This document shows positions 4,167 to 62,094 of a stretch of DNA of 64,000 nucleotides, in pieces. The translations under genes and the position numbers were made by a program. Origin of the DNA: Actinomadura sp. J1-007 (lineage in GTDB: Bacteria; Actinomycetota; Actinomycetes; Streptosporangiales; Streptosporangiaceae); contig NZ_WING01000001.1 of assembly GCF_009793335.1 (NCBI RefSeq), forward strand, positions 5,084,001-5,148,000, in the 5' to 3' direction. The notes below the pieces were generated by a model that was not told the origin of the DNA, made no database searches, and worked only from the letters and a program-made list of their open reading frames with translations. Within the stretch, counting starts at the first letter, position 1. Each line of letters opens with the position of its first letter.

Positions 4167-4745
4167 ATGAACGACGACCAGACCACGGGTGCGGAGAGCA
4201 CCCTCGACGACCTGTGCCGGCGGGCGGCCGAGCTGATCGGCGCGACCGCGGGCCCGTTGAAGAGCGTGCGCCTCCGGTCGGGGGACATGAGCGTCGAGGT
4301 CGAGTGGCCCGACGCCGCGCCGAGCGCGCCCGCCGGCGTTCCGGTGGCGAACGGCGCGATGGCGGCCTTTCCCGGCGTGGCGCCGCCGGGCGTTCCCGGC
4401 GGCGGCGCGATCGCCGAGAGCGGCGCGATCGCGGCCGCGGCGGTCGCGACCGCGGGGGACGGGGCCGCGGCGGCGGTGGTCGCCGCGGACCCGGGGACGT
4501 TCGAGGTGACCGCGCCGCTCGTCGGCACCCTGTACCGCGCGCCGTCGCCCGGCGCGCGGCCCTTCGTCGAGGTCGGCGACGACGTCGAGGAGGGGCAGCA
4601 GGTGGCGATCGTGGAGGCGATGAAGCTCATGAACCCGGTGACGGCCGAACGGCCCGGCCGCGTCGTGGAGGTCCTCGTGGACGACGCGGGCACGGTCGAG
4701 TACGGGCAGCCGATCCTGCGGCTCGCGCCCCCGTCCGACGACTGA
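4167..4745 (+). CDS. accB: Biotin carboxyl carrier protein of acetyl-CoA carboxylase
   Basis: 192-residue biotin carrier subunit. The C-terminal biotinyl domain (about residues 115-190) carries the biotinylation motif EAMKLMN, with the modified lysine near residue 153. The N-terminal part is followed by a long Ala/Gly/Pro linker (about 60-110), as in other BCCPs. It would shuttle the carboxyl group between biotin carboxylase (46377-47747) and carboxyltransferase (47819-49498), both encoded about 42 kb away in the same window, to make malonyl-CoA for the polyketide synthase. ATG at 4167 is preceded by GGAGGACGCGAGG. An in-frame upstream ATG at 4128 is less likely. Confidence 0.92.
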   Translation: MNDDQTTGAESTLDDLCRRAAELIGATAGPLKSVRLRSGDMSVEVEWPDAAPSAPAGVPVANGAMAAFPGVAPPGVPGGGAIAESGAIAAAAVATAGDGAAAAVVAADPGTFEVTAPLVGTLYRAPSPGARPFVEVGDDVEEGQQVAIVEAMKLMNPVTAERPGRVVEVLVDDAGTVEYGQPILRLAPPSDD

Positions 4746-4771
4746 CCGCGGTGCGGGCACGCGCGCGGAGG

Positions 4772-4803
4772 GCGGGGCGCCGGCGGATCGCCGGCGCCCC
4801 GCT
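4772..4803 (+). terminator. Strong hairpin terminator after accB
   Basis: A near-perfect 12-13 bp GC stem (GCGGGGCGCCGGC pairing with GCCGGCGCCCCGC) with a very short loop, followed by TTTG, lies 27 bases after the accB stop codon. Confidence 0.75.
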
Positions 4804-5571
4804 TTGTGCGCGCCGGGGACCGGAGTTCCGATCACGCGAAGATCAAGAAAAACTCGCGGACGTTGAGAGTTGCACGGTCACAGGCCGGTTCCGGCCATCG
4901 GGTTTCCGGGGTGCCTGCGCGTATGATTCTAGAGTTCATCTGACAGTCGATTCGACAAAGCCGTGATCCGAATGATGACCGCACCGGGATGGGAAAGATC
5001 GGCCCTGCAAAAGTCGATCGCCACTCCGAACGATATTCGGTTGTCACTTATCGCGGCTCTGGCTTAGGCTGCGTTAAGCAATTATGTCCACCGTGTAATG
5101 CGGGGATGACGGGGGTATGACCATGGGGGAGCGTGCCGGACGATGTCACTAATCGTCATGCCGCGCACTCGGGGAGTTCGCGGGGCATTAATGAATAGCT
5201 GGCTCCAGCTATTCGGGGCCGGGTAACGGGGAGATGACCGCAGGTCCGGGCGCGAGCGGTCTTCGAGTGTGCTCCGAGCCGCCGGTGTGCATGGTGTGGC
5301 GGTGATCGAGCCGGTGGCCGCCAAGGTCGTGACCTCGGGGAAACAGGTCCGGCCGGAGGCGCCCCCGCTCGGCGCGCCGGAATGCCGGGGTCGCGATTAT
5401 ATAGATCACCGGACGCGGGCTCAAGGGGCCGTTGGTTTTATGCGTGGCCAGACCTCGACGGGGGGAGTTGTTGCCTCTTTGCAGGATCGGGTTAACAATC
5501 TGCGTGTTGATCGTTCCCGCGGGAGAACGTCGCTCACCAAGGTGAACAGGATCAGGGGAGACGGACGGAGC
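4804..5571. promoter_or_regulatory. Long, comparatively AT-rich regulatory region upstream of SARP
   Basis: No convincing gene is visible in these 768 bases, although a frame on the plus strand is open from 5269. Codon usage there is unlike the neighbours and the SARP family start is at 5572. The stretch is clearly richer in A and T than its surroundings, with patches such as GCGTTAAGCAATTATG near 5071 and GGGTTAACAATCTGCG near 5490. It contains a perfect 22-base inverted repeat (separate entry). A possible promoter (TTGTTG at 5468, TAACAA at 5493) is weak. This is the likely control region of the pathway activator. Confidence 0.55.
5193..5214. promoter_or_regulatory. Perfect 22-base inverted repeat, operator candidate
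   Basis: GAATAGCTGG, CT, CCAGCTATTC: two perfectly complementary 10-base arms around a 2-base centre, 358 bases before the SARP start. The arms are AT-containing and no T-run follows, so it looks like a protein-binding site, not a terminator. The nine-base half-site GAATAGCTG recurs at 13944-13952. Confidence 0.5.
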
Positions 5572-7623
5572 ATGCATTTTCGGATTCTCGGCCCGCTGTG
5601 GGTCGCCAACGGGGGTGTGGAGATAACTCCGACCGCCCCAAAGGTGCGGCAGGTGCTCGCGTTCCTGCTCGTGCGGTGCGGAAAGCTCGTTCAGGTCGGA
5701 GAACTCATCGACGAGCTCTGGGGGGAGAGCCCGCCCAACAGCGCGATGACCACACTGCAGACCTACATCTACAAACTACGTAAGGACGTGCTGGAGCACT
5801 GCGGCTCGGCCGAGCTCCACACGAGGGTCTCCGGATACCTGCTCGACGTCTCCGCCGACCTCGGCGACCTGCGCCGCTTCGACTCCCTGGCCCAGGAGGG
5901 CCGCGCCGCCCTGGACGACGGCGACGCGATGCTCGCCGCCGACCGGCTCTCCGAGGCCCTCGCCCTGTGGCGCGGGCCGGCGCTCGCCGACGTCGCGGTC
6001 GGCGACATCCTGTCCGCCCACGTGACCCGGCTGGAGGAGGAGCGGCTGCGCGTCCTCGAGCAGCGGATCACCGCCGACCTCGAACTCGGCCGCCACCAGC
6101 AGCTCGTGAGCGAGCTGAAGATGCTGGTGTCCGAGCACCCTCTGAACGAGCGCTTCTACGCCCACCTCATGGTCGCCCTCAACCGTTCCGGCCGCCGCTA
6201 CGAGGCCCTGGAGGTCTACCAGGGGCTGCGCCGGATGCTCGTGGACGAGCTCGGCATGGAGCCGTCCGCCTCGGTGCAGCGCCTGCACCTCACCCTCCTC
6301 AACTCCGACACCACGGCCGGGAACGGCGCCGGCGCGCCGCTCGTCCCCGTCTCCGCCCCCGTGTCCTCCGATCTCCTCCTGGTGCCGGCGCAGCTCCCCC
6401 CCGACATCCCAGACTTCGTCGGCAGGGAGGACGTGCTGGAACGGATCCACGGGGGGCTGCTCGACTCGGGCGGGGACGGGACGGCGGGCCGCGCGGTCTG
6501 CATCTCCGGGATGCCCGCCGTCGGCAAGACCACCCTGGCGCTGCGCGCCGGCCACGCCAACCGCGCCGAGTTCCCGGACGGCCAGCTCTACGCCGATCTG
6601 CGCGGGACGTCGGAGAACCCGGCCGACCCCCACCAGATCCTGGAAGGTTTCATCCGCGCGATCGGGGTGCCCGCGCACGAGGTCCCCGAGAGCCTCCAGG
6701 AGCGCAGCAAGCTGTTCCGCACGTGGAGCATGGGCGCTCGGCTGCTCGTCGTCCTGGACGACGCCCTCTCGGTGTCGCAGATCGCCCCGCTGCTCCCCGC
6801 GTCCCCCGGCAGCTCGGTGATCATCACGACCCGGTGGGGGCTCTACAGCCTGCCCGGGGTCCGCCACGTCGAACTGGAGGAGATGACGGACGACGAGGCC
6901 GTCGAACTGCTGGAGTCGGCGAGCGGGCGGCCCTACCACGGGTCCGAGCGGCGCGCCGCGGAACGGGCGGCCGAGCTGTGCGGGCGCCTGCCGATCGCGC
7001 TGCGCAGCCTCGGGTCCCGGATGGCCGCGATGCGCAACTGGCCGATCGGCAAGCTCGTCGCGCAGCTCGACGACCCGGCGGGCCGGCTCGACGTGCTCGC
7101 GTTCGCCGACCTGGACGTACGGGCCCGGTGCGCGGCCGGCTACCGGCGGCTGGACCCGCAGGACCGCAGCATGTTCCGGCTGATCAGCCTGCTGCCCCCG
7201 CCGGACTTCACCGCCGACACCGCCGCCCGCCTGGTGGGCGCTGGCACCGACCTGGTGGAGGCGCAGCTCATCCGGCTGGCGGGCTGCCACATGCTGGCGG
7301 TCGCCGACGCGAGCGGCGGCGAGATCCGCTACCGGATGCACGAGCTGGTGCGGCTGTTCGCGCGCGAGTGCCTCGACCAGGAGTTCCTGGAACCCATGCG
7401 GGCGCAGGCCCGCAGCGTGGCGATGCCCGACGAGCGGACGCTGCTCGACGTGCGCGCCGACGAGGCGCGCGCGCACGGGCCCGAGGTGGTCGAGCTGGAC
7501 GCGGGCGACCACGGCCACGAGCTCGAACCGGTGGACCGGCGGGTGTGCCGGGCCATCGATCCCGAGCACCGGCAGGCCCGTCCGCACCACTCGAACGGGC
7601 TCGTCAGGGCGCTGGAGGGCTGA
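5572..7623 (+). CDS. SARP-family pathway activator with NB-ARC domain
   Basis: 683-residue probable transcriptional activator of the cluster. The N-terminus (MHFRILGPLWVANGG, about residues 1-95) is the OmpR-like winged helix of SARPs. It is followed by the bacterial transcriptional activation domain (about 100-245, ending MLVDELGMEPSASVQRLHLTLL). An NB-ARC-type ATPase follows, with P-loop GMPAVGKTT near residue 312 and hydrophobic Walker B RLLVVLDDA. The C-terminal region is helical, but the long TPR array of AfsR-type regulators is not obvious, so this is an intermediate-length SARP. Start ATG 5572 follows GGGGAGACGGACGGAGC. The gene lies directly upstream of the ACP gene. Confidence 0.9.
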   Translation: MHFRILGPLWVANGGVEITPTAPKVRQVLAFLLVRCGKLVQVGELIDELWGESPPNSAMTTLQTYIYKLRKDVLEHCGSAELHTRVSGYLLDVSADLGDLRRFDSLAQEGRAALDDGDAMLAADRLSEALALWRGPALADVAVGDILSAHVTRLEEERLRVLEQRITADLELGRHQQLVSELKMLVSEHPLNERFYAHLMVALNRSGRRYEALEVYQGLRRMLVDELGMEPSASVQRLHLTLLNSDTTAGNGAGAPLVPVSAPVSSDLLLVPAQLPPDIPDFVGREDVLERIHGGLLDSGGDGTAGRAVCISGMPAVGKTTLALRAGHANRAEFPDGQLYADLRGTSENPADPHQILEGFIRAIGVPAHEVPESLQERSKLFRTWSMGARLLVVLDDALSVSQIAPLLPASPGSSVIITTRWGLYSLPGVRHVELEEMTDDEAVELLESASGRPYHGSERRAAERAAELCGRLPIALRSLGSRMAAMRNWPIGKLVAQLDDPAGRLDVLAFADLDVRARCAAGYRRLDPQDRSMFRLISLLPPPDFTADTAARLVGAGTDLVEAQLIRLAGCHMLAVADASGGEIRYRMHELVRLFARECLDQEFLEPMRAQARSVAMPDERTLLDVRADEARAHGPEVVELDAGDHGHELEPVDRRVCRAIDPEHRQARPHHSNGLVRALEG

Positions 7624-7744: not shown

Positions 7745-7970
7745 ATGTCGAGATTCACGGTGGACGACGTCAGACGGATTCTGCGGGACTGCGCGGGCGA
7801 GCCCGACACCATCAGGCTGGACGACGACATCAGCGCCGTCAGCTTCGAGGAGATGGGGTACGACTCGCTGGCCGTCCTGGAGCTGGCGGCCCGGATCCAG
7901 CAGGAGTTCCTGGTGGCGATCTCGGACGAGATGGCGGCCGAGCTCCCCACCCCCGATGCCGTCGTGGGCT

Positions 7971-7999
<29 letters not shown>
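7745..7999 (+). CDS. Acyl carrier protein of type II PKS
   Basis: 84 residues, the usual size for aromatic polyketide ACPs. The phosphopantetheine attachment site is Ser41 in GYDSLAVLELAARIQ. The preceding acidic loop (DDDISAVSFEEMG) and C-terminal helix (PTPDAVVGYVNSRI) are typical. It tethers the growing poly-beta-ketone for KS-alpha/KS-beta (31714-34223). It is encoded about 24 kb from the ketosynthases, whereas most type II clusters keep the three together. RBS AGGGAGAG lies just before the ATG. The next gene may start inside its last codons. Confidence 0.95.
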
Positions 8000-11367
<3,368 letters not shown>

Positions 11368-11369: not shown

Positions 11370-11804
11370 ATGGCGGACGAGAGCATCTTCCGGGTCATGC
11401 TCCGGATGAACATCCATCCGGGCATGGAGTCGGACTTCGAGGAGACCTGGTACAAGGTCGGGCACGCGATCACCGAGCACCGGGCGAACATCTGCCAGTG
11501 GCTCGCCCGCGACGCCGACGACGCCAGCGTCTACCACGTGATCAGCGACTGGGTGGACGAGCCCGGGTTCCGCGAGTTCGAGCGCAGCGACCAGCACCTC
11601 GCGCACCGCACCAAGCTGCACCCGTTCCGCAAGACGGGCACGATGGCGACGATGCACGTGGTGGTCGAGATGGACGGCCAGGCCCGCGCGGCCGGCGCGG
11701 CGGCCCGTCCCCCGAGCCCGCCGCGCGCCCGTAGTCGCACGGCGGGCGTCCAGCGGGGCGCGAGCGTTCCTCAAGTCCGGCTGATCACTGTTCCGGACAG
11801 GTGA
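11370..11804 (+). CDS. ABM-type small monooxygenase/cyclase
   Basis: 144 residues starting two bases after the SDR stop codon. The first 100 residues (FRVMLRMNIHPGMESDFEET, VYHVISDWVDEPGFREFERS, HRTKLHPFRKTGTM) are the ABM ferredoxin-like fold found in aromatic polyketide clusters as quinone-forming monooxygenases or cyclase helpers. The Pro/Arg/Ala-rich tail after residue 105 is unusual for this family and has no recognisable fold. The SDR-ABM order is repeated at 15544-16580. Confidence 0.82.
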   Translation: MADESIFRVMLRMNIHPGMESDFEETWYKVGHAITEHRANICQWLARDADDASVYHVISDWVDEPGFREFERSDQHLAHRTKLHPFRKTGTMATMHVVVEMDGQARAAGAAARPPSPPRARSRTAGVQRGASVPQVRLITVPDR

Positions 11805-11824: not shown

Positions 11825-12334
11825 ATGACAAGTGACATCGGCCGCCGGAACCTGATCGGCAAGGGCCTGCCCGCGGCCGGGGCGGTGGCCCTGCTGGGCA
11901 CCGCGCTGGCCCCGGGCCGGGCGAGCGCCGAGGAGGCCGGTACGGGGCTGCGGCTGCACCCCCTGGTCGGCACGTGGACGACGGTGACGACGATCGAGGG
12001 CTCGACGCGCCCGCCGGAGGAGGGGATGTTCGCCTACAACGCGGACGGGATCCTCAGCGGCACGGACGCGTCCAGGGTCACCGGCTTCGGCACCTGGAAG
12101 GCGACGGGACCCGCCTCGTTCGCCGTGGAGTACCGGCACTACGTGGTCCAGAACGACGCGATCGGCGGCACGGTCGTCGTGACCATGACCGGGACCGTCA
12201 CCTCGGCGACCTCGTTCACCGAGAGCGGCGAGGCCAAGCTGGTCGCCCCGGACGGGACCGTGATCCTCACCCACAAGGCCAAGTCGGTCGGGACCAGGTT
12301 CGGCTTCGCCCCGCCGAGGATCGGCCGGGCCTGA
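11825..12334 (+). CDS. Exported lipocalin-like protein (Tat signal)
   Basis: 169 residues. The N-terminus RRNLIGKGLPAAGAVALLG followed by ASAEEAG looks like a twin-arginine signal with cleavage after ASA (about residue 37). The mature part starts with LHPLVGTWTTVTTIEG and has strands of the lipocalin-like/allene-oxide-cyclase-like barrel (GMFAYNADGILSG, GTWKATGPASFAVEYRHYVV). Its function is unknown. Together with the exported multicopper oxidase upstream it suggests that some step, or product binding, occurs outside the membrane. RBS GAGAGGAGACGCC precedes ATG. Confidence 0.68.
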   Translation: MTSDIGRRNLIGKGLPAAGAVALLGTALAPGRASAEEAGTGLRLHPLVGTWTTVTTIEGSTRPPEEGMFAYNADGILSGTDASRVTGFGTWKATGPASFAVEYRHYVVQNDAIGGTVVVTMTGTVTSATSFTESGEAKLVAPDGTVILTHKAKSVGTRFGFAPPRIGRA

Positions 12335-12455: not shown

Positions 12456-12911
12456 GTGATCGGGAACGCGTTGACGATCGTGGCGCTGGCCGGGAGCGGG
12501 CTCACCGCGGGCGTGCTGCTGGCGGTGGCCATCAGCGTCGTCCCGGCGATGGCGGCGGTGTCGCCGCCGCTGTACGTGCGCTTCCACCAGCTGCTCGGCC
12601 GCAACTGGGATCCGACGATGCCCGCGATCGTGCTGACGTCCGCGCTGACCAGCGCCGTGCTCGCGGCGGTCGGGGACGGCACGCCGGCGCGGGTGCTGTT
12701 CGGTCTCGGCGCCGGGCTGCTGGTCGCGGTGTCCGGCGTGTCCCACCTGTTGAACGTTCCGCTGAACCGCCAGGTCAAGGGCCTGGACCCGGACGCGCCG
12801 CTGCCCGCGGACTGGCGCGACCCGCGGGCGGAGTGGCGCCGCTGGCATCTGCTGCGCACCGCGCTCGCGATCTCCGCGCTGCTGGTGAACGCCCTGGCCG
12901 TCGTGGCCTGA
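12456..12911 (+). CDS. DUF1772 membrane protein, anthrone-oxygenase-like (1 of 3)
   Basis: 151-residue protein with four hydrophobic helices and the DUF1772 pattern: small residues in helix 1 (AGVLLAVAISVVPAM), the loop SPPLYVRFHQLLGRNWDPTMP, then LLNVPLNRQV and DWRDPRAEWRRWHLLRT. Family members include anthrone oxygenases, which oxidise anthrones to anthraquinones. Here it may oxidise a polyphenol ring. GTG start at 12456 with GGAGACAG upstream. Paralogues at 18197 and 34284. Confidence 0.82.
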   Translation: MIGNALTIVALAGSGLTAGVLLAVAISVVPAMAAVSPPLYVRFHQLLGRNWDPTMPAIVLTSALTSAVLAAVGDGTPARVLFGLGAGLLVAVSGVSHLLNVPLNRQVKGLDPDAPLPADWRDPRAEWRRWHLLRTALAISALLVNALAVVA

Positions 12912-12925: not shown

Positions 12926-13849
12926 ATGAGTGCGACGCAGGACACGAATGCGACGCGGGACACGAGTGCGGCGCGGGGACGCGAGCTCGGCTTCGTCGGG
13001 CTCGGGGTGATGGGCGCCGGGATGGCGGCGCGGCTGCTGGAGGCCGGCCACCGGGTGCGGGTCTACAACCGGACGGCGGAGAAGGCGGCGCCGCTGCTGG
13101 CCGCCGGGGCGCGCGCGGCGGCGACGGCGGCCGAGGCCGCCGAGGGCGCGGACGCGGTCGTGGTCAGCCTCGCCGACGAGGCGGCGGTCGAGGCGGTCGT
13201 GTTCGGCGACGCGGTGCGCGGCCTCGCCGCCGGGACGCCGGTGATCGACACCTCCACGGTGACGCCGGCGTTCGCGCGGGACGCGGCGCGCAGGCTCGCC
13301 GACCTCGGCGTGCGGCGCGTCGAGGCGTGCGTGCTCGGCAACCCGCTCCAGGCCCGTTCGGGCGAGCTGCGCGTGATGACCGCCGGGGACCCGGCGGACG
13401 CCGAGGCGGTGCGGGACGTGCTGGAGGCGCTCGGGCAGGAGGTGCGGCACTTCGGCCCGGCGGGCGCCGCGGCGACGATGAAGCTCGTGCTGAACGTGCT
13501 GATCGGCGCGGAGATCGCCGCGCTGGCCGAGGCGGTCGCGCTCGGCGAGAGCGGCGGCCTGGACCGCGACGCGGTGCTGGAGTGCGTCGGCGCGAGCGGC
13601 GTCAGCTCGATGGTGATGAGCTTCCGCGCGGCGATCATGCGGCAGCGCCGGTACGAGCCCGCGGCCTTCCGCAGCAGCCTGATGGCCAAGGACCTGCGGT
13701 ACGCGCTCGGGCTGGCGGAGGCGGCGGCCACCGGGCTGCCGCTCGCCGAGCGCGTCCTGGAGATCGTGGCGCGGGCGGTCGAGCGCGGCGACGGCGACAA
13801 GGACCTCGCGGTCCTCGCCGAGCACGCCGGCGGCGTGCCCGCCGCGTAG
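12926..13849 (+). CDS. 3-hydroxyisobutyrate-dehydrogenase-family NAD(P) oxidoreductase
   Basis: 307 residues. After a Thr/Asp-rich leader, the Rossmann motif GFVGLGVMGAGMAARLLEAG (about residues 18-37) and VYNRTAEKA define the 6-phosphogluconate/3-hydroxyisobutyrate dehydrogenase superfamily. The helical C-terminal domain has the conserved lysine region AATMKLVLNVL and the later MAKDLRYALGLAE. Members reduce or oxidise beta-hydroxy acids or imines. In this cluster the substrate is unknown; a carbonyl or imine of the aromatic product is possible. The gene lies 14 bases after DUF1772 and is followed by a terminator. Confidence 0.85.
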   Translation: MSATQDTNATRDTSAARGRELGFVGLGVMGAGMAARLLEAGHRVRVYNRTAEKAAPLLAAGARAAATAAEAAEGADAVVVSLADEAAVEAVVFGDAVRGLAAGTPVIDTSTVTPAFARDAARRLADLGVRRVEACVLGNPLQARSGELRVMTAGDPADAEAVRDVLEALGQEVRHFGPAGAAATMKLVLNVLIGAEIAALAEAVALGESGGLDRDAVLECVGASGVSSMVMSFRAAIMRQRRYEPAAFRSSLMAKDLRYALGLAEAAATGLPLAERVLEIVARAVERGDGDKDLAVLAEHAGGVPAA

Positions 13850-16580: not shown

Positions 16581-16598
16581 AGACCCGGACCCGAGCAG

Positions 16599-24989: not shown

Positions 24990-24991
24990 CG

Positions 24992-52346: not shown

Positions 52347-54206
52347 ATGTGCGGCATCGTCGGTTGGGTGGACTACGGCCGTGACCTGGCACGGGAACGG
52401 CCGACGCTGGAGGCCATGACCCGGACCCTCGCCGCGCGCGGCGTCGACGACCGGGGCCTGTGGATCGGCGGGCACGCCGCGTTCGGGCACACGCGCACGT
52501 CCATCATCGACCTGGAGGGCGGCGCGCAGCCGCTCACCGTCGAGGAGGACGGCCGGCCCCTCGCCGTCATCGTCTACAACGGCGAGGTCTACAACTTCAA
52601 GCAGTTGCGCGGCGAGCTGGAGGCGCGCGGGCACCGGTTCAGGACGCGCAGCGACACCGAGGTGGTGCTGCGCGCCTACCTGGAGTGGGGCGCGGACGCG
52701 GCGAAGCGGCTGGAGGGCATCTTCGCGTTCGCGATCTGGGACGTGCGGCGCGAGGAGCTGCTGCTCGTCCGCGACAGGCTCGGCGTGAAGCCGCTGTTCT
52801 ACGCGCTGCGGCCGGACGGGGTGCTGTTCGGGTCGGAGCCGAAGGCGCTGCTCGCCAGCCCGCACGTGCGGCCGGTCGTGGACCTGGCGGGGCTGCGGGA
52901 GATGTTCGCGACGGCGAAGCGTCCGGGCCAGTCGGTGTTCCGCGACATGGCCGAGCTGCTGCCCGGCCACACCCTCACGATCGGCCGGAACGGCCCGGTG
53001 GACCGGACGTACTGGACGCTGGAGGCCCGCCCGCACACCGACGACAAGGACGCCACGGTCCGGCACGTCCGCGGGCTGCTGGAGGAGATCGTCCTGCGGG
53101 AGCTGGTCGCGGACGTCCCGCTGTGCACGGCGCTGTCGGGCGGCGTGGACTCCAGCGCGATCACCGCGATCGCGGCCAAGTGGCGCTGGCAGCTCGACGG
53201 CGAACGGGTCCGGACGTTCGTGACGACGTTCGACGAGTACGCGCAGCGGTTCCGGCCCGACGACGTGCGGTTCTCCCCGGACGAGCCGTACGCCGCCGAG
53301 GTGTCGCGGCACCTCGGCACCGAGCACGTGCCGATCGTGCTGAGCACCGGCGACCTGATGGGCCGCGAGACGCGCGAGGCCGTGCTGCGCGCCCAGGACA
53401 TGCCGACCACGCTCGGCGACATGGACACCTCCAACTACCTGACCTCCCGCCGCATCAAGGAGCACTCGACGGTCGCGCTCGCCGGGGAGGTCGCCGACGA
53501 GATCTTCGGCGGCTACAACTGGATGCACGACGAGGACCTGCTGAACGCCGGCACGTTCCCCTGGACGGCGAACGAGCCGCGCCAGCCGGGCTCCCCGAAG
53601 GGCCAGGGCCGGGGCCTGTTCGACGGCGGCCTGATGGACAAGCTCGAACTCGGCACGTACTACGCCGACCACTTCCAGGAGGTCCGCGCGCGGGCGCCGC
53701 ACCAGGAGGGCGAGAGCCCGGCGGAGCGGCGGATGCGGGACGTCTCGTACGCCACCCTCACCTGGTGGCTGCCGATGCTGCTCGACCGCGGCGACCGGCT
53801 CTCGATGGCGCACGGGCTGGAGCTGCGCGTGCCGTACGCCGACCACCGGCTGGTCGAGTACCTCTACAACACGCCGTGGTCGCTGAAGACCTTCGACGGC
53901 CGGGAGAAGAGCATCCTGCGCGCGGCGGTCGCCGACCTCGTCCCGTCGTCGGTGCTGGAGCGCACGAAGAGCCCCTGGCCGGTCACGCAGGACCCGGCGT
54001 ACGCGGCGATGCTGCACGAGGAGCTGTCGGCGCTGCTGAACGACCCGTCCTCGCCGTCCCTGCCGTTCCTGGACCTGGACGCGGTGCGGCGGACGATCGA
54101 GGAGCCGTCGGGCATCGCGCACGAGTGGGTCAGCCGCATGAACATCGAGATGGCGCTGGAGTTCGACGCCTGGCTGCGGCTGTACGACGTCGAGCCGGCC
54201 ATCTGA
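52347..54206 (+). CDS. Asparagine-synthetase-like amidotransferase
   Basis: 619 residues. Cys2 (MCGIVGWVDYG) is the glutaminase nucleophile of class II amidotransferases; RTSIIDLEGGAQPLTVEEDG and VIVYNGEVYNFKQLRGELEA belong to the same domain. The ATP-pyrophosphatase loop ALSGGVDSSAITAIA (about residue 263) and LAGEVADEIFGGYNWMHDED form the synthetase half. In aromatic polyketide clusters such enzymes convert a carboxylate to an amide (tetracyclines) or supply the nitrogen of isoquinolone rings (xantholipin, lysolipin-like). That role is inferred here. RBS AAAGGGAGACGCGG. Confidence 0.94.
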   Translation: MCGIVGWVDYGRDLARERPTLEAMTRTLAARGVDDRGLWIGGHAAFGHTRTSIIDLEGGAQPLTVEEDGRPLAVIVYNGEVYNFKQLRGELEARGHRFRTRSDTEVVLRAYLEWGADAAKRLEGIFAFAIWDVRREELLLVRDRLGVKPLFYALRPDGVLFGSEPKALLASPHVRPVVDLAGLREMFATAKRPGQSVFRDMAELLPGHTLTIGRNGPVDRTYWTLEARPHTDDKDATVRHVRGLLEEIVLRELVADVPLCTALSGGVDSSAITAIAAKWRWQLDGERVRTFVTTFDEYAQRFRPDDVRFSPDEPYAAEVSRHLGTEHVPIVLSTGDLMGRETREAVLRAQDMPTTLGDMDTSNYLTSRRIKEHSTVALAGEVADEIFGGYNWMHDEDLLNAGTFPWTANEPRQPGSPKGQGRGLFDGGLMDKLELGTYYADHFQEVRARAPHQEGESPAERRMRDVSYATLTWWLPMLLDRGDRLSMAHGLELRVPYADHRLVEYLYNTPWSLKTFDGREKSILRAAVADLVPSSVLERTKSPWPVTQDPAYAAMLHEELSALLNDPSSPSLPFLDLDAVRRTIEEPSGIAHEWVSRMNIEMALEFDAWLRLYDVEPAI

Positions 54207-54271: not shown

Positions 54272-54871
54272 ATGGAGTTCTCCGACATCCTGCGCAAGCG
54301 GCTGATGGTGCGCGGCTACACCGACGAGCCGGTCTCGGACGAGGCGCTGGACCGCGTCCTGGCGGCGCTGCGGCGCGCGCCGAGCGCCGGGTTCAGCCAG
54401 GGCCACCGGCTCGTCGTCGTCACCGACCCGAAGCTGCGGCAGGCCGCCGCCGACATCGCCGAGGCGCGGTACGTCGAGCTCGGCTTCCCCCGCTGGATCG
54501 CGTCCGCGCCGGTGCACATCTACGTGTGCACGCGCGAGGCGTCGTACCACGAGCGGTACAACGCGGCCGAGGACGTCCGCGAGGGGTACGACGAGATCCC
54601 CTGGCCGGTGCCGTTCTGGTGGTTCGACTGCGGAGCGCTGTTCATCATGCTCCAGTTGGCGGCGATCAACGAGGGGCTGGCGACCGGCATGGTCAGCTCC
54701 GTCTACACCGGCGAGCTGGACGCGCTCGCCGGCGTGGTCGGGCTGCCGGAGGACGTCGCGCTGGCGGGGATCGTCACGATCGGGCATGAGGACACGAGCC
54801 TCCGCATGCCCGTGCCGCCGAACGCGGCGAAGCGCAAGCCCAACGAAGAGCTCATCGAGTGGCGCCGGTAG
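54272..54871 (+). CDS. Nitroreductase-family flavoprotein
   Basis: 199 residues. EFSDILRKRLMVRGYTDEPV (N-terminal FMN-binding Arg), LAALRRAPSAGFSQGHRLVV, DCGALFIMLQLAAINEGLAT and GLPEDVALAGIVTIGHEDTS are typical of FMN-dependent nitroreductases. In biosynthesis such proteins reduce or dehydrogenate rings as well as nitro groups. The gene lies 65 bases after the amidotransferase, in the same direction, suggesting a joint nitrogen- or redox-tailoring unit. RBS GGAGGCGGACGGC. Confidence 0.88.
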   Translation: MEFSDILRKRLMVRGYTDEPVSDEALDRVLAALRRAPSAGFSQGHRLVVVTDPKLRQAAADIAEARYVELGFPRWIASAPVHIYVCTREASYHERYNAAEDVREGYDEIPWPVPFWWFDCGALFIMLQLAAINEGLATGMVSSVYTGELDALAGVVGLPEDVALAGIVTIGHEDTSLRMPVPPNAAKRKPNEELIEWRR

Positions 54872-54924: not shown

Positions 54925-56526
54925 ATGCGTTTCATCCCGACCCGCCGCCGACCACGGAGCAGGCCGCTCCGGGCGGCCCGTTCCGTCGCGGTCGCCGCCT
55001 GCGCGGGCGTCGCCGCCGCGCTCGCCGTCGCGGCCGTGCCCGCGAGCGCCGACGCGTCCGGCCACGGCAGGCACCGGACCGGCACCGTCTACCACCTCGA
55101 CTGCCGGTCGGGGAACGACGCGTCGCCGGGAACGAGCCCCGGCACCGCCTGGCGCACCTTGGACCGTGTCAACCGGCAGGCGCTCCGCCCCGGGGACTCG
55201 GTGCTGCTGCGCCGGGGGACGCGCTGCGACGGCGTCCTCCAGCCGCAGGGCTCCGGCACCGCCGCGGCGCCGATCACGCTCGCCGCGTACGGCCGCGGGG
55301 CCCGCCCGGCGATCGCCGGCGGCGGCGCCCGCGCGGCGGTGTTCCTGCACAACGTGCAGGGCTACGAGATCCGCCACCTTGACATCTCCAACACCCCGGC
55401 CGCCCCGGACGGGAAGGCGCGCGGCGGCATCTACGTGCTGCTGGAGGACTACGGCACCGGCCGGCACTACGTGGTCCAGGACGTGAAGGTGCACGACGTG
55501 CCCGGCTGCGACTGCCTCCAGCCGGAGCTCGACAACGCGGGCGGCGTGCTGTTCAAGGCGGCCGGGTCGGAGAAGCCGACCGGGTTCGACGGCATCGACG
55601 TCTCGCGCACCACCGTGGCCACCGTCGACAACATCGGCATCGGCACCCTGTCGCAGTGGTCGCGGCGCGAGCCGCTCTACCCGGCGGGCACGAACTCGTT
55701 CGTCCCGATCACGCGGGTGCACGTCCACGGCAACCGGCTCAGCGACATCGGCGGCGACGGCATCCTCGTGCAGAACGGCCTGAACCCGCTCACCGAGCGC
55801 AACGTGGTCGACGGCTTCGGCGTGCGGGGCACGCAGGCGCACGCGGGCATCCTGTCGTTCAACTCGACCGGCGCGACGTTCCAGTTCAACGAGGTGAAGA
55901 ACGGCGCGCTGAACCCGCCCGCGTTCGCCTACAACTTCGACGCCGCCAACTCCGGCTCGACGTACCAGTACAACTACAGCCACGACAACGGCGCGTTCAT
56001 GGCGTTCTGCGCGGTGCCCGGGTCCACGTCGGACGGCGCGGTGATCCGCTACAACATCAGCCAGAACGACAAGGGCATGAAGTTCGGCACGTTCGACGTG
56101 CCGGTGGTCGCGACGGGCTGCGCGGCGCCGCAGAAGAACATCCGGTTCTACGACAACGTGGTCTACAGCGAGGTCGCCCCGGCGCTCGTCGGCGGGCTGA
56201 TGAACACGCCGATCTCCTACAGCAACAACACGTTCGTCGGACGGGCCGAAGGCTCGACGGTCGCCGACCCGAACAGCACGTTCGACCACAACCTCTACAG
56301 CAACGTCGGGGCCCTGCCGCCCGACGGGCACGCGGTGAACGCCGACCCGCGCTTCACCCGGCCCGGCGGCGGCGTGCTCGGCTACCGGCTCAAGTGCGGC
56401 TCGCCCGCCATCGGCGCCGGCGCGGTCATCCCGAACAACGGCGGCCGCGACTTCTTCGGGTTCCGCGTGCCCGCCGACACGCCCCCGAACATCGGCGCCT
56501 ACCAGGGGCCCTGCGCGAAGGGCTGA
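54925..56526 (+). CDS. Secreted right-handed beta-helix protein
   Basis: 533 residues. The basic N-terminus followed by SVAVAACAGVAAALAVAAVP and ASADASG is a secretion signal (cleavage near residue 40). The mature chain has repeated short strands with Asn ladders (NVQGYEIRHLDISN, YQYNYSHDNGAF, IRYNISQNDKGMKFG, IRFYDNVVYSE, ISYSNNTFVG), typical of the pectate-lyase-like parallel beta-helix. Cys pairs are present. No catalytic pattern is recognised. Why a secreted beta-helix protein sits among tailoring genes is unclear; it might bind or modify carbohydrates or the product. RBS CTGGAGGCAG. Confidence 0.82.
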   Translation: MRFIPTRRRPRSRPLRAARSVAVAACAGVAAALAVAAVPASADASGHGRHRTGTVYHLDCRSGNDASPGTSPGTAWRTLDRVNRQALRPGDSVLLRRGTRCDGVLQPQGSGTAAAPITLAAYGRGARPAIAGGGARAAVFLHNVQGYEIRHLDISNTPAAPDGKARGGIYVLLEDYGTGRHYVVQDVKVHDVPGCDCLQPELDNAGGVLFKAAGSEKPTGFDGIDVSRTTVATVDNIGIGTLSQWSRREPLYPAGTNSFVPITRVHVHGNRLSDIGGDGILVQNGLNPLTERNVVDGFGVRGTQAHAGILSFNSTGATFQFNEVKNGALNPPAFAYNFDAANSGSTYQYNYSHDNGAFMAFCAVPGSTSDGAVIRYNISQNDKGMKFGTFDVPVVATGCAAPQKNIRFYDNVVYSEVAPALVGGLMNTPISYSNNTFVGRAEGSTVADPNSTFDHNLYSNVGALPPDGHAVNADPRFTRPGGGVLGYRLKCGSPAIGAGAVIPNNGGRDFFGFRVPADTPPNIGAYQGPCAKG

Positions 56527-56613: not shown

Positions 56614-57642
56614 ATGGGTTCTCCGGCCAAGGCCGACACCACCGGTAAAACCGATAACACCGACCACGAGGACTTCAACACGCAGCACCGCGGAGGGGTG
56701 TTCTTCGAGCAGCTCGGCATCGACCTGTTCCCGCACGCGCACCTCGGGTTCGCGCTCGCGCCGGGCCACCGGTCCGAGACGCTCAACACCGACGAGGAGG
56801 GGTTCCGGCTCTCCGCCTCGCCGCACGGCCCGGTGGACAGCGTCTCCTGGGTCGCGGACGGCGGCGGCGGGCTGCTGCTCGGCAGCTCCGTCGCGTTCGG
56901 CCTCGGCGCGACGTCCGACTCCACCACCCTCGCGTCGCACCTCGCGGCGCTCACGGGGGAGCGGTGGCTGAACCTCGCGGTCCTCGCGGCCAACTCGACG
57001 CAGGAGCTCATCGCCGCGATCCCGTACCTGCACGCCGCGAAGACCGTGGTCGTGTTCAGCGGGCTCGGCAACTACATCGGGCTGCTGCGGGCCCGCACCT
57101 GGAACGCGTTCGGCCCGATCTTCTACGAGGGGACGTTCGCCAAGCTCACCCAGGTCCCGCTGTTCGACCTCGCCGCGCTCTCGACCGGCGACGCCGACCT
57201 CGCCGAGGTCGAGGCCAACCGGCGCGAGGCGCCGGTGCCGCCGGAGCCGGACGCCTCGCAGTTCCGGCACCGGGTCGAGGAGGCGGCGCGGATCCAGCTC
57301 CGCGACCTCGCGTTCGTCGCCCGGACGGCCCCGGAGGGCACGCGGGTCGTGTTCTGCCTCCAGCCGCTCGCGACGCCCCGCACGCGGGAGCTGACCCCCG
57401 AGGAGCAGGAGCGGTACGACTTCCAGGAGTCGCTGCTCGGGGTCCCGAACGAGGTCGTCGAGCAGCACTTCGAGACGTTCGGCGACATCATCGAGAAGGG
57501 CTGCCCGGGGCTCGGGGCCGAGTTCCTCCGGATCGGGGCGCACGAGTTCGTCGGGCCCTCGTTCGTGTCCAACGGCGTCCTCACCGACGAGGGCAACCGG
57601 CAGGCCGCGCAGAAGGTGCACGCCTTCCTCGAAAAGGGCTGA
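56614..57642 (+). CDS. SGNH/GDSL-hydrolase-like protein
   Basis: 342 residues. LLLGSSVAFGLGATSDSTTL (about residues 89-108) resembles block I of SGNH hydrolases with the Ser nucleophile in GSSxxFG. VVVFSGLGNYIGLLRARTWN could be the Gly/Asn blocks, and the C-terminal VLTDEGNRQAAQKVHAFLE contains a D...N position where the family has DxxH. The catalytic His is therefore doubtful. No signal peptide. It follows the beta-helix gene by 87 bases. Possible esterase or acyltransferase on the product; not certain. Confidence 0.6.
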   Translation: MGSPAKADTTGKTDNTDHEDFNTQHRGGVFFEQLGIDLFPHAHLGFALAPGHRSETLNTDEEGFRLSASPHGPVDSVSWVADGGGGLLLGSSVAFGLGATSDSTTLASHLAALTGERWLNLAVLAANSTQELIAAIPYLHAAKTVVVFSGLGNYIGLLRARTWNAFGPIFYEGTFAKLTQVPLFDLAALSTGDADLAEVEANRREAPVPPEPDASQFRHRVEEAARIQLRDLAFVARTAPEGTRVVFCLQPLATPRTRELTPEEQERYDFQESLLGVPNEVVEQHFETFGDIIEKGCPGLGAEFLRIGAHEFVGPSFVSNGVLTDEGNRQAAQKVHAFLEKG

Positions 57643-57709: not shown

Positions 57710-58914
57710 TCACGCCTTGACGGGCTCGTCCCAGTCGACGTGGTAGTCGTACACGCCCATGACGGCCTTGCTGTTGGACGTCAGCTTCAGGATGAGCGGC
57801 AGCACCGCGTCGCGGACCATCCGGCCGACCGGGCCCGGCGCCTTGTTGCTGTTGATCCGCGCCGCCGCCTTGATGATCGCCTCGACCCGCGGCCGGCGCA
57901 GCTCCTCGAACCGGGCGAACGCCCGCGCCGGGGTCGGCAGGTCGCGCAGGCACTTGGCGAGCACCACGGCGTCCTCGATGGACAGCGACGCGCCCTGCCC
58001 GGACGTCGGCGTCGGGGCGTGCGCCGCGTCCCCGATGACCACCATGCGGTCGGTGTGCCAGACCGGCAGGCGCGGGACGGAGTGGACGGGCGTCGCCTTC
58101 ATGTCGGCCGGGTCGCTCGCCCGCACGCACGCGACGCCGGGCCCGGCGTCCGGCGCGTACAGGTCGGCGAGTCGGCGCTGCCAGTCCTCGCCGGAGACCA
58201 TCTCGACCTCGCCGCGGACGGGCTCGTCCGGGCGCGGCAGGTTGGCGAACCACCACACCGTCCCGTCCGGCGGGACGACGTAGCCGAAGAACGCCCGCTT
58301 CCCGAAGATCATGGTGTAGCTGCCCGGCTCGCCGTCCACCTCGACGCCCGAGGCGTAGCCGCCGAGGTTGACCAGCCCGGAGTAGTGCGGGGCGGGCGCG
58401 GCCGGGTCGATGACCGTGCGGACGGTGGAGTGCACGCCGTCCGCGCCGACCAGGATGTCGCCGGTCGCCTCGGTGCCGTCCTCGAACGTCGCGACGACGC
58501 CGTCGACGGTCTCGCGGGCGCCGACCAGCCGCTTGCCGTGCTCGATGCGGACGCCGCGCGAGGCCGCCTCGTCGTGCAGCGCCCGGTACAGGTCGGACCG
58601 CCGGACGGTCTGGCTGGTCGTGCCGTCCGCCAGCTCCTTGCCGGTGCGGTTGCGCCCGAGGTCCTTGCCGGTGGTGCTGCGCAGCAGGATCGCGGGCGTC
58701 GGGAAGCCCTTCTCCAGCGCCGCCTTGTCGGCGCCGATCGTGCGCAGCGCGTCGATCCCGTTGGACGCGAGCGTGAGGAACACGCCGGTGCCGTCCGCGG
58801 TGCCGGGATACGCCTCGTAGACGACCGGCTCGATCCCGGCCCTCCGCAGGGCCATCGCGGCGACGGGGCCGGCGATCCCCCGCCGATGACCAAAGCCGTC
58901 CTGGTTGCCGTCAT
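57710..58914 (-). CDS. FAD-dependent monooxygenase (TetX/PHBH-like, frameshifted)
   Basis: The corrected length is 401 residues. ATG 58914 gives MTATRTALVIGGG. One base is missing in GGCGGGGGATCG on its strand (bases about 58875-58880), after which AGPVAAMALRRAGIEPVVYE completes the FAD motif. DILVGADGVHSTVRTVIDP (about 150) and GDAAHAPTPTSGQGASLSIE (about 290) are intact. It resembles tetracycline-hydroxylating and urate/phenol hydroxylases. Its ATG overlaps the stop of the PadR gene (ATGA), so expression is likely ligand-controlled. Self-resistance by inactivation or a tailoring hydroxylation are both possible. Confidence 0.88.
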
Positions 58915-59507
58915 GTCTGACTCCCCAAGATCTCTTGCCATGCTCGGATGTAGTCGGGCCGCTGGAGCGACTCGATGAGCCGGGTGACGAAGCGGCACTC
59001 CGCCTCCAGGACGGCGAGCTCGTACTCGTCCTCGACCAGGAAGACCCAGATGACGCCGTTGTCCGAGGCGGTCCGCACGGTCTCGCGGATCTCCTCGATC
59101 TGGGCGTTCAGCCGGTCGAGGCGCTGCCGCAGCAGGGCCGTGGCGTCGTGCGGGGCGAGCACGCTGAGCAGGGAGAGCGCCACGCCGAACTGCGGGTACT
59201 CGTTGCGCGGCTGCGCCACCAGCTCGCGCAGCCAGTCGTAGAGCTCGTCCCTGCCCGCGTCGGTGAGCGCGTAGACCGTGCGCTCCGGCCGCTGCGTGTC
59301 GCGCACGGTCTCCCGCTCGGCGATGAAGCCGGCCTTCTTGAGCTGCTCGACCACCATGTAGAGCGAACCGCGGTTGTACTTGAGCGTGCGGTCGTTGCCG
59401 TGCTCCTTCAGCCGCCGCCCGATCTCGTACGGGTGCATGGCCTCGACGAGCAGTTCGGCGAGGACCGCCAGGGCCAGCGGGTTGCCCACCTTGCGTTGCG
59501 CCACCAC
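58911..59507 (-). CDS. PadR-family transcriptional regulator
   Basis: 198 residues starting at a GTG pair (59507/59504). The winged helix VGNPLALAVLAELLVEAMHP, YNRGSLYMVVEQLKKAGFIA, RTVYALTDAGRDELYDWLRE and the C-terminal dimerisation helices are similar throughout to the PadR at 34838. It is co-transcribed with the flavin monooxygenase, which overlaps its stop. The direct repeats upstream (59534-59576) are the likely operator. Confidence 0.9.
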   Translation of the reverse strand: MVAQRKVGNPLALAVLAELLVEAMHPYEIGRRLKEHGNDRTLKYNRGSLYMVVEQLKKAGFIAERETVRDTQRPERTVYALTDAGRDELYDWLRELVAQPRNEYPQFGVALSLLSVLAPHDATALLRQRLDRLNAQIEEIRETVRTASDNGVIWVFLVEDEYELAVLEAECRFVTRLIESLQRPDYIRAWQEILGSQT

Positions 59508-59576: not shown

Positions 59577-59607
59577 GCTCGCGATGAGGCGATCCCGGGG
59601 GCCGGGG

Positions 59608-60599
59608 TCAGGCGGCGGCCAGCTCCACCACCGACAGCGGGGGCGCGGGGTGCACCGCGGCGACGCGGAGCCCGGCGTCCGCCGCGAGCCCGGCCAGCTC
59701 GGCGACGCCGCGCTCCCGGCCGCCGCCGAGGTAGGCGAGCATCCGCAGGTCGGTCTCGGTGTGCAGCTCGCCGTCCGGGCCGATCCGCTCCGCCACGAAC
59801 ACCCGGCCGCCGCCCGCGGCCTCGGCGCACCGCCGCAGGATCGAGCGCGACGCCTCGTCGTCCCAGTCGTGCAGGACGGCCGACAGCAGGTAGCCGTCAG
59901 CGCCTTCGGGCAGCGGGTCGAAGAAGCTGCCCGCCACGACGTCGCACCGGTCCGCGAGCCCCTGCGCCGCGATCGTCTCCCGCGCCTCCGCGACCGTGTC
60001 GGGCAGGTCCAGGACCGTTCCCTTCAGCCCCTCGTGCGCCTTCAGCAGCGCCGCCAGGACCGTGCCGTTCCCGCCGCCGACGTCCACGAGCCGTCCGAGC
60101 GAGCCCCAGTCGAACGCCTGCGACACGGCGTGCGCGCGGCCCATCGCGTCGTACCCCATCTGCGTGTTGAACGACGCCCTGCGCTCGGGTCGGCCGCCAG
60201 GTCGTCCCAGAACGACACCCCGAACTGCGCGGTGAACGCGGCCTCGCCCGTCCGGACGCTGTGCAGCAGGTTCGCGAACGCGACGTCCCCGCGGCCCATC
60301 GCGCCGTCGATGTCGAGGAACGGCCGGATGCTCCCCGGGTGGTCGGAGCGCAGCGGCCCGCCCTTCTCCGACACCTCGTACCGCCCGGACGCGTCCCGGA
60401 CCAGCACGCCGACCGCGGCGAGGTGCCGCATGACCCGGTCGAGCGCCTCGGCGTGCGCGCCGGTCTCCTTGGCCAGCTCCGGCGCCGTGCGCGTCCCGGC
60501 CGCGATGCGGTCGGCGACGCCGAGCGTCGCCGCCACCCGGATCGCCATCGGCGTCATGACGTCCGCCATGCCCCACAACCCGGTGTCGTGCCCTGTCAT
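59608..60599 (-). CDS. SAM-dependent O-methyltransferase-family protein (frameshifted)
   Basis: The corrected length is 330 residues. Start ATG 60599 (MTGHDTGLWGMADVMTPMAI). One base is missing near 60185 (between AADP and ASFNTQMGYDAMG). The N-terminal winged helix (TAPELAKETGAHAEALDRVM) and catalytic domain (LVDVGGGNGTVLAALLKAHE, GSFFDPLPEGADGYLLSAVL, HDWDDEASRSILRR) belong to the TcmN C-terminal/DnrK family. It is most like O-methyltransferases, but this family also contains hydroxylating (RdmB-like) members. Divergent from the second halogenase. Confidence 0.87.
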
Positions 60600-60770
60600 C
60601 GGCTGCTCCTGTCCTCGTCCGAACGTCGAGAGCCCAGATGTAGTCGCCCGCGCTCGCAAGCCCGTCGAGGGGGCGCCCGCCGCTTCGGCCGTCGCTCCAG
60701 AAGGTGTCGAGCCACTCTCCGTAGCTTGCGGGGGACATCCGCGAAAGCGCCTCACAGTTGGGAACCGAGG

Positions 60771-62094
60771 ATGACCGACCAGACCCAAGCCGACGGCACC
60801 CACCCGAACGCGTCGACGTCCTGGTGATCGGCGCCGGCCCCGGCGGCAGCACCACCGCCGCCAAGCTGGCCCAGCTCGGCCACGACGTGCTCGTCCTCGA
60901 ACGGCGCTCGCTGCCCCGCTTCCACATCGGCGAGTCGATGCTGCCGCACATGAACGTCATCGCGAAGCGGCTCGGCGTGTGGGACCGGATCACCGAGCAG
61001 GGCCACGTGCCGAAGCACGGCGCCGAGTTCTGCCGCGTCGGGTCCGGCAAGTACGGGCGCGTGCCGTTCGCCGCCCAGGGCGAGGGCCGGGAGCACTCGA
61101 CCTTCCAGGTGGAGCGCGCCCACTTCGACAAGGTCCTCGCCGAGTTCGCCGTCGAGTCCGGGGCGCGGATGCTCCAGAACGCCAACGTCGAGCGGCTGAT
61201 CGTCGAGGACGGCGACCGCGTCGTCGGCGTCGTCTACCAGCACGAGGGCAGGACCCGCGAGGTCCGCGCCCGCTGGGTGGTGGACGCCGGCGGCCGGTCG
61301 AGCCTGATCACCAAGCGGTTCAAGCTGCGCCGCCACCTCGACCGGATGCGCATGGTCGCGGTCTTCCGGCACTTCACCGGGATCGACGAGCGCAAGAACC
61401 CGGGGAGGAGGGCGACATCATGATCGGCAGCCACGACGACGGGTGGCTGTGGGCGATCCCGATCTGGCCCGACACGATGAGCGTCGGCTCCGTCATGCGC
61501 CGCGAGGTCTTCCGCTCCGGAGAGCCCGAGGCGCTGCTGAACGAGCACATCGCCCGCCTCGACCGCATCTCCAGCCGCATCGCCGGCGCCGAGCCCAAGG
61601 GCGACGTGCACATCGAGGCCGACTACTGCTACTACTCCGACACCATCGCGGGCCGCGGCTGGTTCATGGTCGGCGACGCCGCCTGCTTCTTCGACCCGAT
61701 CTTCTCCGGCGGAACGTTCCTGGCGATGTCCACCGGCTACCGCGCCGCCGAGATCATCGACACCCTCCTCGCCGACCCGTCCCGCACCCAGGAGCTCCAG
61801 GAGCGCTACTCCGGCTTCTACAAGACCGGCTACGACCTGTACGCCCGCGTGATCTACGCCTACTACGAGGGCAAGTTCAACATCAAGCACTACCTCGTCT
61901 CCGTCGAGGACAAGCTCGGCGGCGGCTCCTGGTACGACAACCAGTGGGTCGTCCGCCAGTTCAGCGGCGACTTCTGGAGCGAGGAGAACCTCCTCAACCA
62001 GGCCCTCATCAGCGAGAAGCGCTTCGACACCTTCGCCCCGTTCACCCGAGTCTGGGACTGCCCCTGCTACCCCAAGGAACCCGCCGCCGCCTAA
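60771..62094 (+). CDS. FADH2-dependent halogenase, second type (two frameshifts)
   Basis: The corrected length is 441 residues. ATG 60771 starts MTDQTQADGTHP; one C is missing in CACCCACCCGAACG (about 60808), and one G in CCCGGGGAGGAGGG (about 61404). The restored protein has VIGAGPGGSTTAAKLAQLGH, FHIGESMLPHMNVIAKRLG (GES motif), the halogenase signature GWLWAIP after EEGDIMIGSHDD, and GDAACFFDPIFSGGTFLAMS. It is of the shorter phenolic/pyrrole halogenase type and differs from the 551-residue enzyme at 25918. This may be the right-hand end of the cluster. Confidence 0.9.

Follow-up and report, generated by a model that had tools for sequence, protein, structure and literature searches.

In bacterial xanthone pathways, as summarised in the relevant part of a review (PMC9327801), ring opening is assigned to the flavin Baeyer-Villiger enzymes PnxO4, XanO4 and Arx30. 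In fungi, by the account given in part of PMC9890505, the quinone ring is opened by an NADPH-dependent reductase and a dioxygenase, not by a Baeyer-Villiger enzyme; for geodin, a halogenase and a multicopper oxidase follow ring opening, and proteins with a SnoaL domain have been classed among the xanthone cyclases. Here we describe a 64,000-nucleotide stretch of Actinomadura sp. J1-007 (the window; C1:5084001-5148000 of a 10.33 Mb genome in three contigs) that carries a type II polyketide synthase (PKS) cluster, and in particular g28, a questin-oxidase-like protein encoded within the tailoring genes g21-g39, referred to below as the ring-cleavage block. Our preferred reading, given slightly better than even odds (about 0.5), is a single cluster of ~73 kb in which a core is joined to a polycyclic-xanthone-like right arm and g28 splits a hydroquinone ring. 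The block, present in six clusters, is what is unusual here; it is conserved, and it recurs outside Actinomadura. Genes were called with a codon-usage model, the window proteins were scanned against Pfam and NCBIfam, and relatives were compared by tblastn of window genes against their cluster regions.

Gene g28 and the proposed ring-cleavage block

The relatives of g28 at 51-57% carry PF14027, and some of its orthologues are named "questin oxidase family". It shares the fold of the BTG13 questin oxidase (7y3w) and of the hydroquinone dioxygenase PaD (8z4q/8z4r) over 301-302 of 317 residues. Four histidines and one lysine are invariant in 100 of 100 g28-family sequences (aligned among homologues, not position-matched to BTG13); the iron ligands of BTG13 are four histidines and one carboxylated lysine. 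The best solved relatives of the halogenase g33, in the same block, are the tetracycline 7-halogenase structures 7v0b/7xgb (635 bits). The core holds each enzyme kind of the fungal pathways (the multicopper oxidase in three of the six clusters), and on this basis we propose that ring cleavage may be the work of g28 and chlorination that of g33. Of the two products first suggested, a chlorinated isoquinolone-xanthone or a seco-quinone glycoside, the seco-quinone is favoured by the fold of g28. The lone Protein Data Bank (PDB) match of one g28 search, a ribosomal protein at E 0.08, is put down to chance. The hemerythrin-like gene lies within ~3 kb of g28 in all six clusters.

As read from the protein families, the minimal PKS, the TcmN/WhiE-type and TcmI-type cyclases and the cupins would build a pentangular-type chain, which anthrone-oxygenase-type and ABM proteins, once it is cyclised, would oxidise to a quinone. 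A short-chain dehydrogenase/reductase (SDR) would take the quinone to the hydroquinone, and g28, acting as a non-heme-iron dioxygenase, would add dioxygen and split the hydroquinone ring, giving a benzophenone-type or lactone intermediate whose re-closure (xanthone type) might be steered by the SnoaL proteins and a flavin adenine dinucleotide (FAD) enzyme. The CtcP-like halogenase, with its flavin reductase, would chlorinate. Lactam nitrogen, methyl groups and sugar would next come from the arm; coupling of phenols outside the cytoplasm is a possible role for the multicopper oxidase, and the FAD enzyme of the arm, g52, may be a second ring-opening oxygenase or a xanthone-forming enzyme.

To map the distribution of the block, 297 genomes of the order were scanned, 70 of which match the g28 alignment at E <= 1e-20 and 150 of which have a chain-length factor (ketosynthase beta, KS-beta) at E <= 1e-90. 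The close g28 subfamily (E <= 2.6e-128) is found in nine. KS-beta lies within 10.4 kb of it in six of these (G000, G056, G080, G082, G297 and G282), lies elsewhere in two (G270 and G190) and is absent from one (G106). G000 is the genome of the window; identical KS-beta coordinates equate G056, G080 and G082, all counted in its genus, with Actinomadura roseirufa, A. viridilutea and A. xylanilytica. Of the 17 block genes compared, 14 are found at 47-66% in G282, which belongs to the same genus as Actinoallomurus iriomotensis. G282 also has KS-alpha, KS-beta, a cyclase and another g33-like halogenase (50%); no match to the multicopper oxidase or the amidotransferase was found in the 60 kb compared. 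Together, g28 and g33 occur at this level in one of eight genomes of that genus, and Actinoallomurus iriomotensis itself (G270) has a g28 match but no g33 match at E <= 1e-80 and no KS-beta nearby. In Streptomyces sp. NRRL F-5123 (L095), genes matching g28 (44%), SnoaL (36%) and the halogenase (44%) lie within 10 kb of a KS-beta belonging to an angucycline-like clade, and its g28 keeps the His/Lys positions by eye.

More tentatively, we suggest that actinobacterial type II PKS of three KS-beta lineages (Actinomadura, the genus of Actinoallomurus iriomotensis and Streptomyces sp. NRRL F-5123) may use a fungal-type cleavage module, an SDR giving the hydroquinone and a non-heme-iron dioxygenase acting on it, together with tetracycline-7-halogenase-like enzymes; that in the window, as for geodin, closure of a spiro or xanthone ring may fall to an exported multicopper oxidase; and that the module might explain the presumed ring cleavage in allocyclinones.

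Core, right arm and the KS-beta tree

The relatives separate the core from the right arm. In Actinomadura roseirufa both are present (contigs C22 and C57), and gene order is largely kept as far as AccA/D; the amidotransferase, nitroreductase, SDR, TenA and cytochrome P450 (P450) genes follow on the second contig, and the cluster genes are mostly at 60-94% identity. It is without most of the 54.9-73.5 kb stretch between nitroreductase and SDR, its PadR (69%), beta-helix (61%) and FAD (43%) genes are placed elsewhere, and those compared genes that are split in the window are single there. The core is also present in A. viridilutea and A. xylanilytica, where the interval from g17 to SchA/CurD holds other genes for a methyltransferase, a glycosyltransferase and FAD enzymes (as mapped in A. 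viridilutea) and the cluster region lacks an amidotransferase. A. alba has a smaller core with no multicopper oxidase, SchA/CurD or arm. Kibdelosporangium banguiense has the arm genes g47, g48, g52, g58, g59 and g60 at 61-70%; in the 60 kb compared there is no match to g26-g30, g35, g36, g38 or g39, and g33 reaches only 26%. Clusters of Sphaerisporangium, Streptosporangium and Nonomuraea (L073, L079, L105 and L109) carry g49, g50 and g52 at 73-83% and g53 and g62 at 56-64%.

One explanation of this pattern is that two adjacent pathways share one minimal PKS, the core leading to a ring-cleaved chlorinated product, perhaps akin to allocyclinones, and the arm to a separate xanthone or glycoside. 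It is in keeping with the lack of matches to g53, g59, g60 and g61 in the A. alba, A. viridilutea and A. xylanilytica cluster regions compared, where g47, g48, g52, g57 and g58 reach at most 43%, with the similar arm genes beside another minimal PKS in K. banguiense, and with G282, where the block is accompanied by two CtcP-like halogenases. We nevertheless consider it improbable, as a single KS-beta match reaches E <= 1e-60 in the whole genome and A. roseirufa keeps the core and arm genes through AccA/D in near-identical order on one contig.

The KS-beta tree has 82 rows (80 loci, the window and a KS-alpha outgroup); it includes no reference of known chain length and no named reference KS-beta, its angucycline-like and xanthone-type labels coming from gene content. 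The window and four Actinomadura sequences form one 5-row clade (support 99), which joins two Microbispora/Nonomuraea rows at support 89 and lies outside both a 20-row angucycline-like clade (95) and a 16-row clade (95) with Kibdelosporangium and Gandjariella, xanthone-type by gene content. The distinction from angucyclines drawn in the original prediction thus holds for that clade, but a larger group (support 80) to which the window belongs does contain it. A sister position of the G282 KS-beta to the Actinomadura clade is ruled out, since it falls with Nonomuraea (support 94) on a long branch; the ring-cleavage block is therefore not bound to one KS-beta lineage.

The tree also bears on the idea that this is an ordinary xanthone/isoquinolinone cluster of the xantholipin/lysolipin/albofungin type, with g52 opening the ring by Baeyer-Villiger oxidation and g28 merely accessory. 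The amidotransferase, halogenase, O-methyltransferases, glycosyltransferase, ferredoxin and nearby P450 do fit the xan, llp, abf and arx gene kinds as given in parts of PMC9327801 and PMC9469721, and RubL and GrhO5 are the nearest solved relatives of g52. The A. alba core, with g28, nevertheless stands without the arm (no amidotransferase match in the 80 kb compared, and the FAD enzyme at 31%), and the Actinomadura KS-beta clade lies outside the xanthone-type one, so that we regard this alternative as rather unlikely.

Our preferred reading, a single cluster with ring cleavage by g28, has a number of observations to contend with. The g28 protein scores 21.9 bits against PF14027, under the Pfam cut-off of 27, so that the questin-oxidase label of the original prediction stands on homologues and fold and not on Pfam itself. 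Its identity to BTG13 is just 16-17%, BTG13 was not recovered by phmmer or hmmsearch of PDB sequences with g28, so that the tie between them rests on fold, and a shared fold does not equal shared activity. Five of the six co-located g28/KS-beta cases are one cluster lineage, which leaves two independent cases, or three with Streptomyces sp. NRRL F-5123. Among the other 61 genomes, with more distant g28 homologues, 31 also have KS-beta; in the 28 of these with rows listed, none has KS-beta within 1 Mb of the g28-like gene on the same contig (in G273 and G289 the two share a contig, over 1 Mb apart), which suggests that the wider family does other work. G282 is without g26, and its g31 and g37 matches are only 25% and 45%; the patchy occurrence of the multicopper oxidase counts in the same direction. 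The arm carries its own candidate ring-opening enzyme in g52, and the PDB matches of g21 and g32 (g31, g47, g48 and g50 aside), both FabG-like, do not single out a quinone reductase among the SDRs. Lastly, the Actinomadura KS-beta clade groups weakly (80) with a 32-row clade holding the angucycline-like rows and not with Kibdelosporangium, which speaks mildly against a close tie to xanthone-type sequences.

Extent, gene content and frame breaks

On its left side the cluster ends close to the AccB gene (4161). To the right it runs past the window into the region L132 (64001-84000 in window numbering), which holds a dihydroxybenzoate (DHB)-AMP-ligase-like enzyme, a type I PKS, an SDR, a TenA-like protein, a P450 and an FAD monooxygenase piece. 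The P450 lies in two frames at L132:11237-12447, 11.2-12.4 kb right of the window. The SDR, TenA and P450 are 86%, 78% and 91% identical to an A. roseirufa run directly after the nitroreductase, and 70%, 63% and 78.5% to K. banguiense genes (the P450 over 200 residues in both cases). With the P450 just beyond the edge, the ferredoxin at 52041 has one within 25 kb, and the absence of a visible P450, remarked on originally, is true of the window but is a window-edge effect and not a feature of the cluster. The type I PKS (KS-AT-DH-KR-ACP make-up, that is, ketosynthase, acyltransferase, dehydratase, ketoreductase and acyl carrier protein; 1772 aa) and the DHB-AMP-ligase-like gene lie at L132:2532-9508 (66.5-73.5 kb in window numbering), between nitroreductase and SDR; such a pair might supply an aromatic acid in activated form, and both are candidate pathway members only. 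Another P450 in two frames lies at C1:5082764-5083245, ~0.8-1.2 kb left of the window, beyond TetR, luciferase-like and MarR genes.

Pfam scans, KS and ACP motifs and cyclase PDB matches bear out the original prediction of a pentangular-type type II PKS cluster with halogenases and an amidotransferase. GCTSG is the KS-alpha motif, with the active cysteine, EQAGG that of KS-beta, with its glutamine replacement, and DSL is found in the ACP. The best PDB matches of the first-ring cyclase are 3tl1/3tvr/2kf2 ("polyketide cyclase", 172-173 bits), which we take to be WhiE-type, with TcmN at 154-157; such kinship argues for a pentangular fold, and a TcmI-type and two cupin cyclases are present as well. 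The Pfam scans likewise recovered the four ABM proteins, three FAD monooxygenases, multicopper oxidase, luciferase-like enzyme, two halogenases, three O-methyltransferases and glycosyltransferase that had been listed, and the three DUF1772 proteins (PF08592, Anthrone_oxy, at 12456, 18197 and 34284). They added two SnoaL proteins, a hemerythrin, a 6-phosphogluconate dehydrogenase (6PGDH)-type reductase, a ferredoxin, a nitroreductase, two PadR regulators, AccB/AccC/AccA-D and MMPL and ABC exporters (Table 1). ABM proteins need not be oxidases, according to the part of PMC6689052 that deals with them, so that this part of the supposedly unusual oxidative set is ordinary, as is the P450 content; what remains unusual in it is the ring-cleavage block.

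Table 1. Features of the window, in window numbering (Tat, twin-arginine translocation; SAM, S-adenosylmethionine)
Feature	Position	Strand	Basis and remarks
AccB-like biotinyl carrier (malonyl-CoA supply)	4161-4745	+	PF00364; 74% in A. roseirufa
SARP/AfsR-like regulator	5269-7623	+	BTAD, NB-ARC (Pfam run on 5644-7623)
ACP	7745-7999	+	PF00550; DSL motif
ABM protein	8136-8438	+	PF03992
Multicopper oxidase	8589-10028	+	PF07731/2; copper motifs; Tat-like N-terminus by eye; 3/6 clusters
TcmN/WhiE-type cyclase and ketoreductase, two overlapping open reading frames	10175-11367 (cyclase 10175-10549)	+	Pfam, PDB matches
ABM protein	11370-11804	+	PF03992
Orphan protein, predicted beta-barrel	11825-12334	+	Tat-like N-terminus by eye; model
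Anthrone oxygenase family g16	12456-12911	+	PF08592
NAD-binding 6PGDH-type reductase g17	12926-13849	+	PF03446
SchA/CurD protein, C-terminus in another frame	14073-14449	+	PF04486
Second SARP regulator, frame-split	14488-15476	+	Pfam
SDR g21, block gene	15517-16284	+	FabG-like PDB matches
Two ABM proteins g22, g23	16296-16937 (starts 16296, 16638)	+	PF03992
FAD monooxygenase g24	17016-18197	+	PF01494 (FAD_binding_3)
Anthrone oxygenase family g25	18197-18670	+	PF08592
MMPL exporter g26, N-terminus in another frame	18795-20890	+	PF03176
SAM methyltransferase g27	20897-21733	+	Pfam
Questin-oxidase-like protein g28, candidate ring-cleaving dioxygenase	21730-22683	+	homologues, fold
Hemerythrin-like protein g29	22693-23328	+	PF01814
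SnoaL-like protein g30	23387-23863	-	PF07366
Two SDRs g31, g32	24045-25786	+	Pfam; g32 PDB matches
FADH2 halogenase g33, tetracycline-7-halogenase type	25918-27573	+	PF04820; WFWVIP; PDB match
SRPBCC protein g34	27674-28111	-	PF10604; 72% in A. alba only
Cupin g35, two frame changes	28280-28751	+	Pfam
SnoaL-like protein g36	28757-29230	+	PF07366
O-methyltransferase g37/38, two frame changes	29371-30499	-	PF00891 (Methyltransf_2), PF08100
Flavin reductase g39, likely partner of halogenase	30542-31084	-	PF01613
Cupin, one frame change	31294-31709	+	Pfam
KS-alpha	~31716-33018 (Pfam KS match from near 31760)	+	PF00109/PF02801; GCTSG
KS-beta / chain-length factor	33015-34223	+	Pfam; EQAGG
Anthrone oxygenase family g42	34284-34742	+	PF08592
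PadR regulator, DrrAB-type ABC exporter, cation/proton antiporter	34838-38749		Pfam
Two SDRs g47, g48 of right arm	38847-40578	+	70% and 65% in K. banguiense
Luciferase-like F420-type oxidoreductase and SDR g49, g50	40731-42334	-	Pfam/NCBIfam
TcmI-type cyclase g51	42528-42827	+	PF04673
FAD monooxygenase g52, close to RubL/GrhO5/RdmE	42820-44442	+	FAD_binding_3; PDB matches
TenA-like protein g53	44442-45113	+	PF03070
AccC and AccA/D	46377-49498	-	Pfam
Glycosyltransferase g57, EryCIII-like	49522-50655	-	Pfam
O-methyltransferase g58	50803-51834	-	Methyltransf_2
4Fe-4S ferredoxin g59, likely partner of P450 beyond window	52041-52235	+	69% in K. banguiense
Asparagine-synthase-like amidotransferase g60	52347-54206	+	Pfam/NCBIfam
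Nitroreductase g61	54272-54871	+	Pfam
Beta-helix protein g62, export-type N-terminus by eye	54925-56526	+	Pfam/NCBIfam
FAD monooxygenase (at 57710) and PadR regulator g64, g65	57710-59507	-	FAD_binding_3
O-methyltransferase g66, frame-split	59608-60803	-	Methyltransf_2
Second FADH2 halogenase g67/68, frame-split	60758-62094	+	WLWAIP

The orphan protein at 11825-12334 belongs to a family for which a search of 5.8 billion proteins turned up eight members; its model, built from those 8 sequences, is of moderate quality (predicted local distance difference test score 73.7), and its three PDB matches at E <= 0.001 are all designed barrels, the spirocyclases OlmO/OssO ranking lower. Its gene is a few genes away from that of the multicopper oxidase, and both products have a Tat-like N-terminus by eye. 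A 342-aa protein at 56614-57642 has no Pfam or NCBIfam match at E <= 0.001 and no counterpart in the compared clusters.

Up to nine window genes are frame-split, plus two beyond it, as might be expected if the cluster were decaying and the split genes were pseudogenes with no full product. Seven are split relative to four relatives (cyclase-ketoreductase, SchA/CurD, second SARP, MMPL, cupin, O-methyltransferase and second cupin), and two more by domain layout, the O-methyltransferase at 59.6-60.8 kb and the second halogenase. Decay seems very unlikely, however: counterparts of the seven are whole in one or more Actinomadura relatives, and the low assembly completeness (90.9% in 3 contigs, below all but one, G062 at 88, of the other 64 genomes of the genus) is as expected from leftover indel errors. 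For the cyclase-ketoreductase, A. roseirufa, A. viridilutea and A. xylanilytica each have a single fused protein of 397 aa, and in A. alba the ketoreductase part is truncated; the split in the window may be natural because other clusters keep two genes there, while for the other breaks sequence error is likeliest. An apparent cupin-KS-alpha fusion (frame 31252-33018) is an artefact, all four relatives having a stop between the two and the window one frame change.

Relation to known systems

Chlorinated spirocycles are known from Actinomadura RB29, as smaller molecules in the portions of PMC10951976 and PMC11611000 that report them; maduralactomycin and actinospirol from that strain are not favoured as the product, the formulas listed in the latter having 17-18 carbons. 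Allocyclinones, from Actinoallomurus, are described in the relevant part of the literature as hyper-halogenated undecaketide angucyclinones, presumed ring-cleaved type II polyketides. Because G282 falls in the same genus as Actinoallomurus iriomotensis, its block is a candidate for allocyclinone-type compounds, the tie being by genus only, and a g28-type enzyme would, if our reading is right, be a candidate for their presumed ring cleavage. A fungal-type dioxygenase block would then be a second, independent ring-opening solution in bacteria. The cluster thus hints at a way, so far unrecognised in bacteria, of making ring-opened aromatic antibiotics, and a g28-type gene beside KS-beta offers a genetic handle in the search for further chlorinated ones.

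With the clusters for xantholipin, lysolipin, arixanthomycin and albofungin the present cluster has these kinds of gene in common: a type II PKS, an amidotransferase, a halogenase, an FAD monooxygenase, a P450 and O-methyltransferases. Unlike them, the window has the ring-cleavage block, which goes unmentioned in those parts of their descriptions by which they were compared, and a KS-beta clade of its own. The fungal geodin, benzophenone and xanthone pathways (GedH, GedF, GedK, GedL and GedJ; AgnL5-type SnoaL) employ the same enzyme kinds as the window, those common to it and the geodin logic being anthrone oxygenase, SDR, ring-cleaving dioxygenase fold, halogenase, multicopper oxidase and SnoaL. 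For its part, g28 is >100 residues shorter than BTG13 and PaD, at 16-18% identity. The likeness to the Ged proteins is one of enzyme kind, and, unlike the fungal pathways, the window uses a type II PKS and a halogenase nearest to the bacterial tetracycline 7-halogenase.

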